Shown here: positions 6,221-30,700 of the stretch, piece by piece
How the letters are laid out: every line of letters starts with the position of its first letter
Numbering within the stretch: position 1 is the first letter of the stretch
DNA from: Synergistaceae bacterium
GTDB taxonomy: Bacteria; Synergistota; Synergistia; Synergistales; Aminobacteriaceae
DNA: 54,617 nt
Reading direction: 5' to 3'
Assembly: GCA_017451025.1 (NCBI GenBank)
Contig: JAFSSM010000053.1
Span: forward strand, 1-54,617
The notes under the pieces: model-generated
Database searches by the model: none
Told to the model about the DNA's origin: nothing
What the model saw: the letters and a program-made list of their open reading frames with translations, nothing else
Translations under genes and position numbers: made by a program

Positions 6221-7294
6221 CTACCACGCGTAAAGCAACGTATCGACAAGTTTTGTTGAGTGATGGCGTATAATGAGCTTATAGTCAGGACACATATCCT
6301 TCACCATAAGAGGAATTGACCAGAAGTCCGTAGCATTGTGATAAATGCATATGGCGAGTCTGGGCTTGAATTTCTTGATGGTCTTGGCCGCACCAAGAAG
6401 CATTTTGTACTCGTAGCTCTCAATATCGGCTTTTAGGAATGTGAAACCTTCTGATAAAAAGTCGTCTAGAGCAACCGTCCTGATTTCTTCGGATTCACTG
6501 CCAGGAACAGAAGCTATTGACGATGCCGCTCCGCTGTTCCCGCTTCTGCTGAGGTACGAGACTGAGGACTCATTAGACACACCATACGGATATACGGTGA
6601 TTGTTTCGGGAGAGAAATTCCATTCTTCGCAAAGCCGTATGACCCTTTTTTCGAGTGCACGGCGGTTTTTCGGATCTGGCTCAAAAGCAATTATCTTTCT
6701 CAGCTGTCCTTCGTGCTGCCATATGAATTTTTCGAGCGTATCTCCTACATATGCCCCGCAGTCAACGAAAATATCATTGCTATTTATGCGCTGAAAAGCA
6801 GGATTAACGAAAGAATGGTCCCACGAGGCGCAATCGTCTACGAATAGTTCTGCCCGTGCCCTGTGCTGGAGAAGGGAGAGATAGATTTCACGAGAGCGTT
6901 CGTCGTCAAGATAGTTAATTACCTGGCGCAATTCTCCTTTGTGGAGGCTGAAGATTGCCGCATCTATGTTGCAGTACTGGACGTTTAGGGAATGGAGTTC
7001 GGCGTGAATATTTTTGAGGGCTTCAGGATTTAGAGCGCAAATAAGTACGAAGGCGTTTTTGTCAGCAGCAACTTCCTGCGGAGAAAATATCTTCTTTCCG
7101 CAGAAATATCCCCCCCCCCCCAAGTAATTTTTACTTACCGTGTAGCCGCAAATATTCAGAGACTTTTCGCGCGCAAGACCTTCCTGATAGCATCTAGACC
7201 AATTACTTATGCCCCAGACGTACAGATTCTTTCCGGCGAAAGACTCAGGATTAGGAAGCGTCCGGAAAAATTCTTCAAGCAATGATGAGTTCAT
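6221..7294 (-). CDS. FkbM family methyltransferase containing a G12 tract (phase-variable, ON here)
   Basis: A 357-residue protein with an N-terminal Rossmann-like segment (residues 20-100, LYVWGISNWSRCYQ) and a C-terminal FkbM methyltransferase domain. The SAM motif is IFVDCGAYVGDT near 175-186, followed by IIAFEPDPKNRRALEK and FLKADIESYEYKMLLGA. It is probably a glycan O-methyltransferase; the N-terminal half resembles sugar-nucleotide-type Rossmann folds, a weak guess. Residues 59-62 are four glycines encoded by an uninterrupted run of 12 G (12 C on the plus strand, 7110-7121). The frame is open in this assembly; gain or loss of one G would truncate the protein near residue 60-90 before the catalytic domain. 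Confidence 0.85.
   Translation of the reverse strand: MNSSLLEEFFRTLPNPESFAGKNLYVWGISNWSRCYQEGLAREKSLNICGYTVSKNYLGGGGYFCGKKIFSPQEVAADKNAFVLICALNPEALKNIHAELHSLNVQYCNIDAAIFSLHKGELRQVINYLDDERSREIYLSLLQHRARAELFVDDCASWDHSFVNPAFQRINSNDIFVDCGAYVGDTLEKFIWQHEGQLRKIIAFEPDPKNRRALEKRVIRLCEEWNFSPETITVYPYGVSNESSVSYLSRSGNSGAASSIASVPGSESEEIRTVALDDFLSEGFTFLKADIESYEYKMLLGAAKTIKKFKPRLAICIYHNATDFWSIPLMVKDMCPDYKLIIRHHSTKLVDTLLYAW
7110..7121. repeat. C12/G12 homopolymer inside the FkbM coding sequence
   Basis: Twelve consecutive C on the plus strand encode Leu-Gly4 on the minus strand at codons 58-62 of the FkbM methyltransferase. Uninterrupted C/G runs this long are prone to slipped-strand mispairing and are classic ON/OFF switches. 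Confidence 0.9.
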
Positions 7295-15076: not shown

Positions 15077-15108
15077 ATTATACGCAGGGGGGGGGGGGTA
15101 TAAATCAA
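15077..15108 (-). promoter_or_regulatory. Promoter of the zinc-ribbon gene with a C12 tract in its spacer
   Basis: On the minus strand a TTGATT (15103-15108) and a perfect TATAAT (15077-15082) are 20 bases apart. Twelve of the 20 spacer bases are the C run at 15087-15098. Twenty is longer than the optimal 17; loss of two to four C would bring the spacing to 16-18. The arrangement is like the known homopolymer-spacer promoters of Neisseria. Confidence 0.6.
15087..15098. repeat. G12/C12 homopolymer in a promoter spacer
   Basis: Twelve consecutive G on the plus strand between ribE and the zinc-ribbon gene, not in any coding frame. Confidence 0.9.
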
Positions 15109-15118
15109 TAGGTACTTA

Positions 15119-15745
15119 TTACGATAATAACGACGCTAAATATTCATCGCTATTCTTCTTCCATGTGTTCAGCCTCGCAACATATTTCCCCAGTATGTCC
15201 GTCTCAAGGTTAATCACGCTCCCGGCCCTCAGCCCTCCCAAAGTCGTAGCCTCCAGCGTCGCAGGAATCAGTCCCACCGAAAAACTATTAACTCCCGCAT
15301 CAATCACCGTCAGGCTAACTCCGTCAATCGCCACACTACCCTTCTCCACAATCCCCCGCAATAACTCCCTATCCTCCGGCTCAAACACAGCCTCGCGAGT
15401 CTCCGTTCCCCTCACTTCACGCAACGTCGCAACTCCGTCAACATGTCCCAGCACCAAATGACCGTCCAGCCTGTCCGTGAGTCTCATTGCACGTTCAAGA
15501 TTCACCCTAGTACCAGCACGAAGCCCCCTCCCGAACCACGTCCGCACCCACGTCTCGCGCATCATCTCTACCTCAAAGCTCCTAGAGTCATTCCGAGTTA
15601 CGGTCAGGCACGCTCCGCTCACGCTCACCGACTGCCCCCTCAATAACTCTCCAGAAATTCCCGCCTCAATACTCAGCGTATAGTACGCTCCAGTCTGCCG
15701 AAAACTCCTCACTGTCCCGATTGTCTCTATAAGTCCGGTGAACAT
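15119..15745 (-). CDS. ribE: Riboflavin synthase, alpha subunit type
   Basis: Converts two molecules of 6,7-dimethyl-8-ribityllumazine into riboflavin plus a pyrimidinedione. The 208-residue protein has the two tandem lumazine-binding repeats: MFTGLIETIGTV at the N-terminus and HLVLGHVDGVATL at about residue 95. Conserved SVSGACLTV and SVAIDGVSLTV each sit at the end of a repeat. The start overlaps the 3' end of ribD by 19 bases, implying coupled translation. Genes for RibBA and lumazine synthase are not nearby. Confidence 0.94.
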   Translation of the reverse strand: MFTGLIETIGTVRSFRQTGAYYTLSIEAGISGELLRGQSVSVSGACLTVTRNDSRSFEVEMMRETWVRTWFGRGLRAGTRVNLERAMRLTDRLDGHLVLGHVDGVATLREVRGTETREAVFEPEDRELLRGIVEKGSVAIDGVSLTVIDAGVNSFSVGLIPATLEATTLGGLRAGSVINLETDILGKYVARLNTWKKNSDEYLASLLS

Positions 15746-23719: not shown

Positions 23720-26134
23720 TCATATCATGCACATAGAGTCCAGCAGCTCATTAGAGAACCGCAATGCCCGGCCAAGCTCATAGAGTCCTTTTCCTGCACG
23801 GTCCTCCTCGCCGCCGACAAATGCACCGTACTTCTTCAGCAGCTCATAGTACAAATTCTGCACATCATCAAGCGTCAGCTTCCACTCGAATTTTTCGGTG
23901 AATAACTTTATCAGACCGTTCAAGTTCTCCAGAATCTCAACGTCAAGCCCGCTCATGCACATTCCCGCAATAATTCTGCTCATGCTCTCCGCAAAAGCAT
24001 AGCGTATCTGTTCCTCGTAGGGCCTTACCTGCCAGAATACCGCAAACTCGAAATCACGCCTTATGCTTCCCACATCAGGCACAGGGCTTTCCAATTTCTG
24101 GATAATGTCGCTCGTCAGGGTAAACTCCGCCGCCATTGTGATTATTGCGGGCGGACGGGAACCTAACAGCGTAAGGTATTCCAGGAGCTGGTCATAATTC
24201 TTGACGATGTCCCTGACTCTGTCCTCCATCTTCTGCACGTCCTGGTGAAGCAGCTCATTTATCAGCCTGTAGCGTGAATTTGAGGGAATGTTATTCAGCG
24301 TGAACTGGTTGTACCCGAACTCGCTGAACATTAAGTTTACGCTGTCCTCATTGTAGAACACGGCCTGAAGTTCCTTGACCTGGTCAATTGATAGAGCGTC
24401 CATGTTTTCGGCTTCGGATATGCCGCAGGATATTGATGTGCCTCCGTTATGCTTGACGGCGAAAAGATAATTCCCCTCAATGTCCGTGATGTTTGAGTGC
24501 ACGTGAACTTTTCCGGCGGAGAAAGATTTTCCGTCGCCAAGCTCGAGGCGCAAAACACTTCCTTTCATGTCCCAGCATCCTTCGGAAAATTCCGGCTTGA
24601 AGTCCCGCAACAGCGTCGTGATTCCGTAATACGCCGCCATCTGCATACGGTCGGTTATGCCCTGCTTTGCGCGGAGTTCGTAGATTTTCGCGCCGTCCTG
24701 CAATTCCGGGACGTTGCTGGGAGCTTCCGCAAGCATCTTCAGGAACGCAGGCTCAAGGTCAACGTCGAACAGCATCTTTACCAGCTGAATTGCGCGTGCC
24801 GCATAGCGCATAATCTGCACCGGCTCAATCCTGGAAATCTCGTCGAAGAACCATCCGCACGACGTAAACATTAACAGAGAGTTGCGCTGTATCTCGAGGA
24901 GCATTAGTGCCCTGACGCGCTCTTCGTGCGAAAGTTCGCGGCCTACGTTCTTTCGCAGAAAGATATTCACGCTGTCGTCCGACCTGTCCAGAATCACGTC
25001 GATATACTTGTCCCGTGCCTCCCAGCAGTCATTGAACATGCTGTTGTGCTCGTAAATATCGGCCAGCTTGTCGCGCAGGAAGTTCAATGCGTCGCGAAGG
25101 GGCTTTCTCCATTTGTGATGATAGCCTGGAGTTCCGTCCCCGCAGAAGCAGTCGCTCCTCCAGCGTTCAACCCCGTGTGCGCAGCTCCACGAAGAATTTT
25201 CGATTATCTGTGCCTCCATTTCAGGAGGGTAGAACGACAGAAATTCTCCGTAGACCGTCAATTGGGCTTCGGCTGATGTATCGATGGTCTCGAGACAGTA
25301 AGCCAGAGCCATATCACCGTGCTTGTGGTGATGTCCGTATGATTCTCCGTCGGTGGCAACGTGAGTCAGGACAGGGAAGCCTGGTTTGGGAGCAGCGTTG
25401 ATGAGTTCGCGTGCAAAATTCCCTCCGTCATTGAGGAGACCTGCAAAAGCTATTTTCTGTGAGAGCGGTCCGTCATAGAAGAACAAGTTTATGCTCCGGC
25501 CTGACGGCAATTTGCACAGGTAAGCGCAGCGTGAGTCTACTTTTCCGCCGCTGACATCTTCCCATTCCTTGCGGCCAAGTATGCGCACAGCTTTGGCCTG
25601 ATAGGGTGATAACACAGTGAAGATTATTCCATTTTCGGCGAGGACTTCCAGAGTCTCGGTGTCGACTGCGCACTCGGCGAGCCACATGCCTTCGGGCATA
25701 CGTCCGAACCTGCTCCTGAAGTCCGCGATTCCCCAGCGTACTTGAGTTTCCTTGTCGCGGCGGTTAGCGAGGGGCATGATGATATGGTTGTAGACCTGAG
25801 CCATAGCCGGGCCGTGTCCCGAGAATCTTTTGCGGCCTATTTTGTCTGCCTCGAGGATTGCCTCGTAGCAGAGCGGGTCTTTCTCCTCAAGCCATGCAAG
25901 AAGTGTCGGGCCTATGTTGAAGCTCATGCGCGAGTAATTGTTGCAGATTTTGCGTATGTCTCCCTTTTCGTCGAGAATGCGCGAAGCTGCGTTGCGGCTG
26001 TAACACTCGGAAGATATGCGGGCGTTCCAGTCGTGGAAGGGTGCGGCGGATTCCTGAACCTCTACGGCTTCGAGCCAGGGGTTTTCGCGCGGCGGCTGGT
26101 AGAAGTGTCCGTGAATGCAAATGTATTTTGGCAA
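23720..26134 (-). CDS. Glycoside hydrolase family 57 / DUF3536 protein (alpha-amylase or glucan-branching type)
   Basis: An 804-residue cytoplasmic protein with no signal peptide. It begins YICIHGHFYQPPRENPWLE, the GH57 N-terminal strand with HxHFYQPPRE. Further GH57-like blocks are FSGHGPAMAQVYNHIIMPLAN, GMWLAECAVD (candidate catalytic Glu) and THVATDGESYGHHHKHGDMAL (candidate catalytic Asp). The second half matches the DUF3536 architecture. GH57 enzymes act on alpha-glucans such as glycogen; the precise reaction is not certain. The TTG start at 26134 has AAAGGAG 9 bases upstream. A TATAAT at 26177-26182 is its likely -10. Confidence 0.85.
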   Translation of the reverse strand: MPKYICIHGHFYQPPRENPWLEAVEVQESAAPFHDWNARISSECYSRNAASRILDEKGDIRKICNNYSRMSFNIGPTLLAWLEEKDPLCYEAILEADKIGRKRFSGHGPAMAQVYNHIIMPLANRRDKETQVRWGIADFRSRFGRMPEGMWLAECAVDTETLEVLAENGIIFTVLSPYQAKAVRILGRKEWEDVSGGKVDSRCAYLCKLPSGRSINLFFYDGPLSQKIAFAGLLNDGGNFARELINAAPKPGFPVLTHVATDGESYGHHHKHGDMALAYCLETIDTSAEAQLTVYGEFLSFYPPEMEAQIIENSSWSCAHGVERWRSDCFCGDGTPGYHHKWRKPLRDALNFLRDKLADIYEHNSMFNDCWEARDKYIDVILDRSDDSVNIFLRKNVGRELSHEERVRALMLLEIQRNSLLMFTSCGWFFDEISRIEPVQIMRYAARAIQLVKMLFDVDLEPAFLKMLAEAPSNVPELQDGAKIYELRAKQGITDRMQMAAYYGITTLLRDFKPEFSEGCWDMKGSVLRLELGDGKSFSAGKVHVHSNITDIEGNYLFAVKHNGGTSISCGISEAENMDALSIDQVKELQAVFYNEDSVNLMFSEFGYNQFTLNNIPSNSRYRLINELLHQDVQKMEDRVRDIVKNYDQLLEYLTLLGSRPPAIITMAAEFTLTSDIIQKLESPVPDVGSIRRDFEFAVFWQVRPYEEQIRYAFAESMSRIIAGMCMSGLDVEILENLNGLIKLFTEKFEWKLTLDDVQNLYYELLKKYGAFVGGEEDRAGKGLYELGRALRFSNELLDSMCMI

Positions 26135-26257: not shown

Positions 26258-26269
26258 CCCCCCCCCCCC
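26258..26269. repeat. C12 homopolymer in the divergent intergenic region
   Basis: Twelve C on the plus strand between the GH57 gene (-) and the small-ORF/glycine-zipper locus (+). An extended -10 (TGGTATTAT, 26279-26287) begins 9 bases downstream on the plus strand. The 317-base gap 26136-26452 holds this tract, the two promoters and a broken small ORF. Confidence 0.9.
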
Positions 26270-29607: not shown

Positions 29608-30700
29608 CTAAATCTTATTCAGCAGATCAAGCCATTTTGAGGCTATTGTGCCGGTTTCATAAAGTGCTGAGTTCTCGAAGGAGGCTCTGCCCATTTTTCT
29701 GCGGAGTTCGTCATTTTTCGCAATAGCTATTATCTTCTCTGCCAGCCCCCGCACATCTCCAACGTCAACAATATAGCCGTTAACGCCATCATGGATCATG
29801 TCAGAAGGGCCATAATTGCAGTTGAAGCTGACTACAGGAAGTCCGCAGGTTTCTGCCTCGATAAGTACCATAGGAAGCCCCTCATAGATTGAGGTCATCG
29901 TCATAATGTCCGAAGCTAGATACTCACTCTTGATGTCGCTTACAGGAGGGTGAATGTGCACGAAGTCCTCAAGGCATTTTTCGGCAATAAGGCGTTGCAG
30001 AAATGGTTCATCATCGCCCTTGCCGAATATAGTTATGTGCCAGTCGGGGATTTCGGGTTTCATGATTGCCGCAGCTTCTATCAGAGCAGGAAAATTCTTC
30101 TGCTCAATAATACGGCCTACAGCTATGATCCTTTTAGTGTTTAGCGGTGAAGTCTTGTCCCTAGTGAAAGATATCGAATTGGGAATGACGAATATTCTGT
30201 TTTTGTCAACAACATCGTAGTAATTTTCAGAATCGCCTTTTGTGAGGCACACCAGAGCATCGCAACGGTGATATACGAATTTTCTGATAGCATTTAACAC
30301 TCTGCCGAAGGGCCTGTGATCCATGAGGGACTGATAATTGAAATGTTCGCATGCTACTTTTTTGAAGTTGCGGCCAAAAAAGTACATCATAACGCAAACT
30401 TGCCTGCCTGCCCCAAAAACAACCTCAATATTGTTATCACTAAGGTAGGCCCGAACCTTATGGATATACTTCAGCCAGCCCAGTCTTCTCTTCTCACGGC
30501 TGGTGTTTCCCGCGTGGAATAATTTTACGCTGCTGTGAAGAGGATACGGACATTTATTGTCCCCCCCCCCCTACAGTAGTTGTAACTATTACGTGCACGT
30601 TGAAGCTTCTCTCAGCAAATATGTTCGCTAAATTCACAACAGCACGTTCCGTTCCGCCTACACTTAATGTGTCCAGCAGTATCGCAATATTCGAGTACAA
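29608..30700 (-). CDS. GT4-type glycosyltransferase, phase-variable, out of frame here (G11)
   Basis: As assembled the gene is split. The first part starts at TTG 30698-30700, after AAAGGAGGT, and reads YSNIAILLDTLSVGGTERAVVNLAN (the GT4 N-terminal GGTER block). It meets a run of 11 G (30561-30571) and stops two codons later, at 48 residues. With 10 or 13 G the frame continues without a stop through VKLFHAGNTSREKRRLG and KYIHKVRAYLSDNNIEVVFGAG into the 260-residue part that is open here from ATG 30390. The complete protein would be about 363 residues, normal for GT4, with PNSISF, AVGRIIEQKNFPALIEA and the donor-site YEGLPMVLIEAETCGLPVVSF. Cytoplasmic, surface-glycan synthesis inferred. A short product from the internal ATG would lack the acceptor-binding half. 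Confidence 0.85.
30561..30571. repeat. C11/G11 homopolymer in the glycosyltransferase
   Basis: Eleven C on the plus strand fall at codons 43-47 of the glycosyltransferase and put the gene out of frame. The tract codes for glycine in the sense strand, as in the FkbM gene. Confidence 0.92.

Follow-up and report, generated by a model that had tools for sequence, protein, structure and literature searches.

A glycosyltransferase gene probably switched by a poly-G tract, one of 59 such tracts in the genome of a Synergistaceae bacterium

The window analyzed here is the whole of a 54,617-nucleotide contig (JAFSSM010000053.1 of assembly GCA_017451025.1, contig C39 in our analysis) from a 2.35 Mb draft genome, G000, of a Synergistaceae bacterium. 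On its minus strand a ribosome-binding site read from the sequence, AAAGGAGGT (30715–30707), lies 6 nt 5′ of a TTG start codon at 30700. From this codon an N-terminal half of 43 codons (30572–30700) runs into a tract of exactly 11 Gs, GGGGGGGGGGG (30571–30561), which is followed by ACAATAAATG. Read through G11, the TTG frame comprises 48 codons and is ended by a TAA (30556–30554); on the 3′ side another frame stays open from the tract as far as the stop at 29608, a length of 316 codons (29608–30558). Given a 5′ side in phase 0 and a 3′ side in phase 2, the only tract lengths that join the two in frame are 10, 13 and so on. An earlier note on this DNA had described a TTG start behind a ribosome-binding site, 11 Gs, a stop at codon 49 and restoration of the frame by G10 or G13, and each of these holds. 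The note had also described a C-terminal domain of 260 residues joined to the N-terminal part without a stop; the joined frame is indeed free of stops, but 260 residues is only the ATG-started part of the open frame.

Both halves look like parts of a GT4 glycosyltransferase, the N-terminal half weakly so, in agreement with the identity proposed before. In particular, the N-terminal half matches PF13439 with an E value of 0.0067 (16.9 bits, under the Pfam cut-off of 28.5 because the half is cut short), and the ATG-started part of the C-terminal half matches PF00534 with an E value of 3e-38 (131.5 bits against a cut-off of 26.4). The GT4 pair of domains in one protein is thus met, with the whole gene aligned to an intact ortholog. 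This ortholog, the best match among 60 relatives, is an unbroken gene in a genome of the same genus (G010, contig C6; 58% identity over 259 residues), with which both halves align end to end and collinearly, as expected if, as had been suggested, two halves of one gene meet at the homopolymer. The next gene in G010, as in the window, encodes a cation ATPase (recognized from the sequence by eye, without a search). At the position of the tract G010 reads GAAGGGGAC, with four Gs. Because G010 has only GGGG at this site and both halves are collinear with its gene, the simplest reading is that the tract expanded in place within an ordinary gene, an inference from the alignment alone. No split gene lacking the tract was seen when the locus was compared in relatives. 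The locus thus meets two criteria for a contingency gene: a homopolymer of hypermutable length lies within a coding region, and its two sides form one gene that is in frame at certain lengths only.

The tract is not alone. Within the window we found 19 overlapping matches to G8, from four tracts, against an expectation of 0.94; 100 dinucleotide shuffles of the window all stayed below 19. One of the other three tracts, a G12 on the minus strand (7110–7121), lies in frame (ON) inside an open reading frame for an FkbM-type methyltransferase (6221–7294). Another G12 (15087–15098, plus strand) lies outside any clear gene, past the 3′ end of a minus-strand reading frame (15119–15745) that by eye resembles riboflavin synthase, and the last (26258–26269, minus strand, also G12) lies about 120 nt 5′ of the start of an 804-codon reading frame (23720–26134). 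The latter two, both outside clear genes, are possible transcriptional switches. Elsewhere in the genome, an intergenic G13 (C35:1561) directly behind TTGACA suggests a promoter spacer, and so possible transcriptional phase variation, by inference.

Across the genome there are 59 runs of G or C of nine or more. In a 370 kb sample made up of the window and the DNA around the tracts, which holds practically every such run, the numbers of G/C runs of lengths 4 to 14 were 1069, 202, 32, 4, 0, 1, 7, 7, 15, 8 and 9. The distribution is bimodal, with no run of 8 and a second peak at 10–14 with its top at 12, and A/T runs in the same DNA reach a maximum length of 8. (Note that the sample is centred on tracts, which inflates the long peak in comparison with short runs; the gap at 7–9 is not an effect of the sampling.) We called a tract clearly intragenic if at least 30 open codons lay on each side of it, and 35 of the 59 qualify. 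Of these, nine are in frame, 15 need one G less and 11 need one G more (p=0.45 against equal use of the phases); the tract phases are random, as expected of equal phases. By position, four tracts lie at gene 3′ ends, six near 5′ ends, nine elsewhere and five at contig edges. Reading G-wise gives long open frames on both sides; the tracts are many, mostly intragenic and with G on the coding strand, as in Campylobacter. After a tract, an out-of-frame stop is met earlier than within the same genes (median 5.5 against 11 codons, p=1.6e-5), which accounts for part of the A/T-rich right flank. Five contig ends of G000 fall within 30 nt of tracts, where 0.09 were expected, and these breaks could reflect mixed tract lengths or sequencing trouble with long homopolymers. 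One contig (C25, at 40235) ends in G23; next to it, on the opposite strand, a frame of 1778 codons is open, which may be a repetitive surface-protein gene or else an assembly artefact.

Most tract genes encode glycosyl-, acyl- or methyltransferases, ATP-grasp enzymes or beta-helix proteins. Their Pfam matches include glycosyltransferases (GT1/4, GT2, GT6 and GT11), LicD and Caps_synth; FkbM methyltransferases, acyl- and acetyltransferases and a CDP-alcohol transferase; ATP-grasp, KAS III, AMP-binding, NAD epimerase, radical SAM and ribulose-phosphate epimerase enzymes; and beta-helix/PMP-like proteins, sensor kinases and an amino-acid permease. Several tract genes have no Pfam match. Judged by these domain assignments, the predicted gene set is what a surface phasome usually contains.

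Tract length varies between species. (Note that the only ortholog found for the glycosyltransferase is tract-less, so the comparisons of length come from the permease and from other tracts of the genus, and that they are made between species and not within one.) We read the permease locus (G000:C32:9658) in G000 and 29 congeners: 17 genomes carry a tract, of 9, 10, 11, 12, 13 or 18 Gs, and in 13 congeners the tract is absent, with no run of six Gs. A genome outside this set, G098, has G16 at the same locus. The permease tract, in the orthologs as well, sits at the C-terminal end of the gene, just before a second permease gene, and the locus is a good model for the gain and loss of a tract. Closely related pairs differ as well: G028 and G004, 90% identical over 905 bp, carry G13 and G12, respectively, and a tract of G11 in G010 corresponds to one of G13 in G030. 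Within the G000 genome no near-identical duplicates with differing tract lengths were found; the closest paralogs are about 75% alike.

Tracts of nine or more Gs occur in 168 of 188 Synergistota genomes, and long ones (12 or more) are concentrated in the source genus. We rejected a phylum-wide phasome: the GC-rich genomes G071 (64% GC) and G130 (70% GC) have only G9–G10 runs that are tails of their composition, with no flank. The long tracts of G082 and G165 lie in contexts quite unlike those of the genus, in part a repeated gene family and in part stretches of G/C runs often near contig ends. In G082, of another genus of the family, tracts of G12–G20 lie in copies of the repeat CTCTCGACATCTGTCATnGTGC-Gn-nGAAAAAGACCAATTCGG, a different, repeat-borne poly-G. 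In G165 poly-G lies close to poly-C, hairpin-like and in many cases near contig ends, possibly as an artefact.

Taken together, we put at roughly 0.88 the probability that the GT4 gene is phase variable by slippage in its poly-G tract, one of the 59. Switching itself is inferred, there being no data from reads, strains or expression. The earlier suggestion of a contingency gene is favoured by every comparative test available, that is, by the tract-less ortholog, the random phase of the 59 tracts and the variation in length. Length changes of this kind are generally ascribed to slipped-strand mispairing, by which the coding-strand poly-G after codon 43 would gain or lose Gs. With the assembled G11, translation would end at the TAA, which lies five codons after the tract begins, without yielding an enzyme; at G10 or G13 it would give an enzyme of about 363 residues, an ON product that is likewise inferred. 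MutS1 (838.8 bits against a cut-off of 641.7) and MutL (394.9 bits when joined, against 180) are both present in G000, and missing mismatch repair is therefore not the reason for the tracts. Their presence would lower slippage and so counts against switching, although other repair-proficient species also switch.

We considered three other explanations for the state of the gene. The frameshift in the assembled allele is what a decaying pseudogene, broken once in a run of Gs, would contain; we think this very improbable, since the C-terminal half continues for its 316 codons without another stop or frameshift, its pN of 0.29 against a pS of 0.71 relative to the G010 ortholog (values that also include the time before the split) speaks against decay, and 58 other tracts have open frames on both sides. 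That the tract is real and the gene intact in cells, its true length being G10 (or G13) and miscounted in the assembly, is improbable but has somewhat more to recommend it: long homopolymers are error-prone in assemblies, and contigs of G000 end at tracts. For this reason the description of the gene as locked OFF can be kept only in part, in that G11 is out of frame in the assembly; "locked" is too strong a word for a long homopolymer in a single draft. However, 26 of the 35 intragenic tracts are out of frame, which fits random phase and not small errors around an in-frame length, and even a miscounted tract would likely be hypermutable, as orthologous tracts differ in length. Finally, homopolymers can make polymerase slip, and one allele could in principle give a short and a long product through a programmed frameshift or transcriptional slippage. 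We find this scarcely credible here, given that tracts vary in length (from G9 to G18 in a single ortholog), that all three phases are in use, and that a survey of frame transitions that covered such sites and included two Synergistetes genomes ties this slippage to A/T runs (PMC3711429). Phase variation by slippage thus remains our reading of the locus.

The tracts of the genus share a further feature, first seen when the flanks were sorted by eye. Upstream of the Gs, at a distance of about 16 nt and in genes that are not related to one another, stands a common block of DNA, TACGTAAwTTTAC, which accompanies most of the G000 runs. An EM model of 132 tracts from five congeneric genomes recovered the core TACGTAAwTww with a log-likelihood of 348, compared with 107–118 for shuffled flanks and 62–78 for DNA 60–300 nt away. 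With up to one mismatch allowed, TACGTAA begins between −17 and −15 in 36 cases and rarely at other positions. Tracts of held-out genomes were recognized with an AUC of 0.84–0.95 against distant DNA and 0.82–0.93 against shuffles of the same flanks. (The p values for the block are optimistic, since some loci are orthologous between genomes.) Of the 43 genomes of the genus, 28 contain the pattern ACGTAA-N4..12-G9, compared with a single one among 145 other Synergistota; the reversed pattern, as a control, gave two matches. In G000 the block is found in two of the three codon phases, 0 and 1, and never in the one that would put its TAA in frame, and it is therefore a feature of the DNA, which rules out a protein motif. 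Nor can paralogy explain it, only few tract pairs being paralogous, or mere AT-richness, given the result with composition-matched shuffles in held-out genomes. Beside short G runs, as potential seeds, the block showed no excess in G000 and few instances in relatives. About 20 matches in MAGs of termite-gut Planctomycetaceae were set aside as mostly one dispersed repeat (TACGTAAAxCA-G12 in the JAIRTV MAG) unrelated to the genus block. A few loci give the impression, by eye, of inverted-repeat arms flanking the tract, which we do not claim.

In the window, the flank upstream of the methyltransferase tract, GTAAGTAAAAATTACTT, fits the block and scores above all controls. For the glycosyltransferase tract there is only an ACGTAA 23 nt 5′ of the Gs (30589–30594, minus strand), possibly a displaced copy, outside the usual spacing and no higher than the 90th percentile of control DNA. 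The block is thus a property of the tract class, and is not demonstrated for the glycosyltransferase gene.

What the block is can only be framed as alternatives, namely a protein site, a sequence spread by gene conversion or a mutational bias; its discrete spacing favours a site, and no function is shown. It is possible, though we lean against it, that the block is not a working site and merely arose as gene conversion or template switching copied tract and flank between genes. In some unrelated G000 genes the 16 nt that precede the tract are indeed almost identical (TACGTAATTTGTGTAA with variants), but conservation takes the form of a discrete block about 16 nt off that drops beside the tract, the permease tracts lie at two positions and in three species lack the block, and the glycosyltransferase tract replaced a GGGG. 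More doubtful still is a dedicated cis site for seeding, lengthening or keeping tracts at chosen genes, with a factor specific to the genus that binds or cuts it; phase variation would then be programmed in cis rather than by passive slippage alone.

Poly-G switching of this general kind is known from other phyla. Poly-G ON/OFF frame switching of glycosyltransferases of the lgt type occurs in Neisseria, a mismatch-repair-proficient organism; the G000 gene is unrelated to those genes, belongs to another phylum and has no known phenotype. The poly-G phasome of Campylobacter (PMC6321876) is alike in its many tracts per genome, mostly within open reading frames, with G on the coding strand and in surface-modifying genes. 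It differs in phylum and in its peak length (9–10, compared with 12 in G000); the conserved upstream block of the G000 genus is unreported for Campylobacter in the literature examined and was not tested there. Campylobacter is also without MutS1 and MutL, both of which G000 has, and their absence is no requirement for phase variation. As in the C-terminal phase variation of Helicobacter canadensis (PMC2823697), some tracts at gene 3′ ends, such as those of the permease and the ribulose-phosphate epimerase, would alter only the C-terminus; the glycosyltransferase tract, near the 5′ end, is unlike that arrangement. For Synergistota, the earlier note had known of no such description, and our searches for repeat-driven phase variation in Synergistetes, Synergistota or Synergistaceae likewise found none (open-licence papers only, so that absence is no proof); one survey lists a putative inversion for one Synergistetes species out of two (PMC5903667). 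In this phylum, a poly-G phasome of the Campylobacter kind thus appears not to have been described. The glycosyltransferase gene joins a known kind, and it is the genus-wide set and the conserved block that set the system apart, pending proof of switching and of a role for the block.

If the 59 tracts, mostly in surface-glycan and cell-envelope genes, do switch, individual cells would differ in the combination of sugars on their surface. A role in surface glycans is itself inferred, as is slippage in living cells and any benefit, such as evasion of phage or host. The genus is known from gut MAGs, those of ruminants among them, and has up to 59 tracts per genome, which makes the question testable in gut metagenomes. 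If assemblies break at tracts, annotation of these bacteria probably misses some of their surface-glycan genes or calls them pseudogenes. If the block is functional, it would determine in cis where tracts arise, something that we have not seen described for poly-G switching. An uncultured gut bacterium, apparently not a pathogen, thus seems to possess a large repertoire of random ON/OFF switching.
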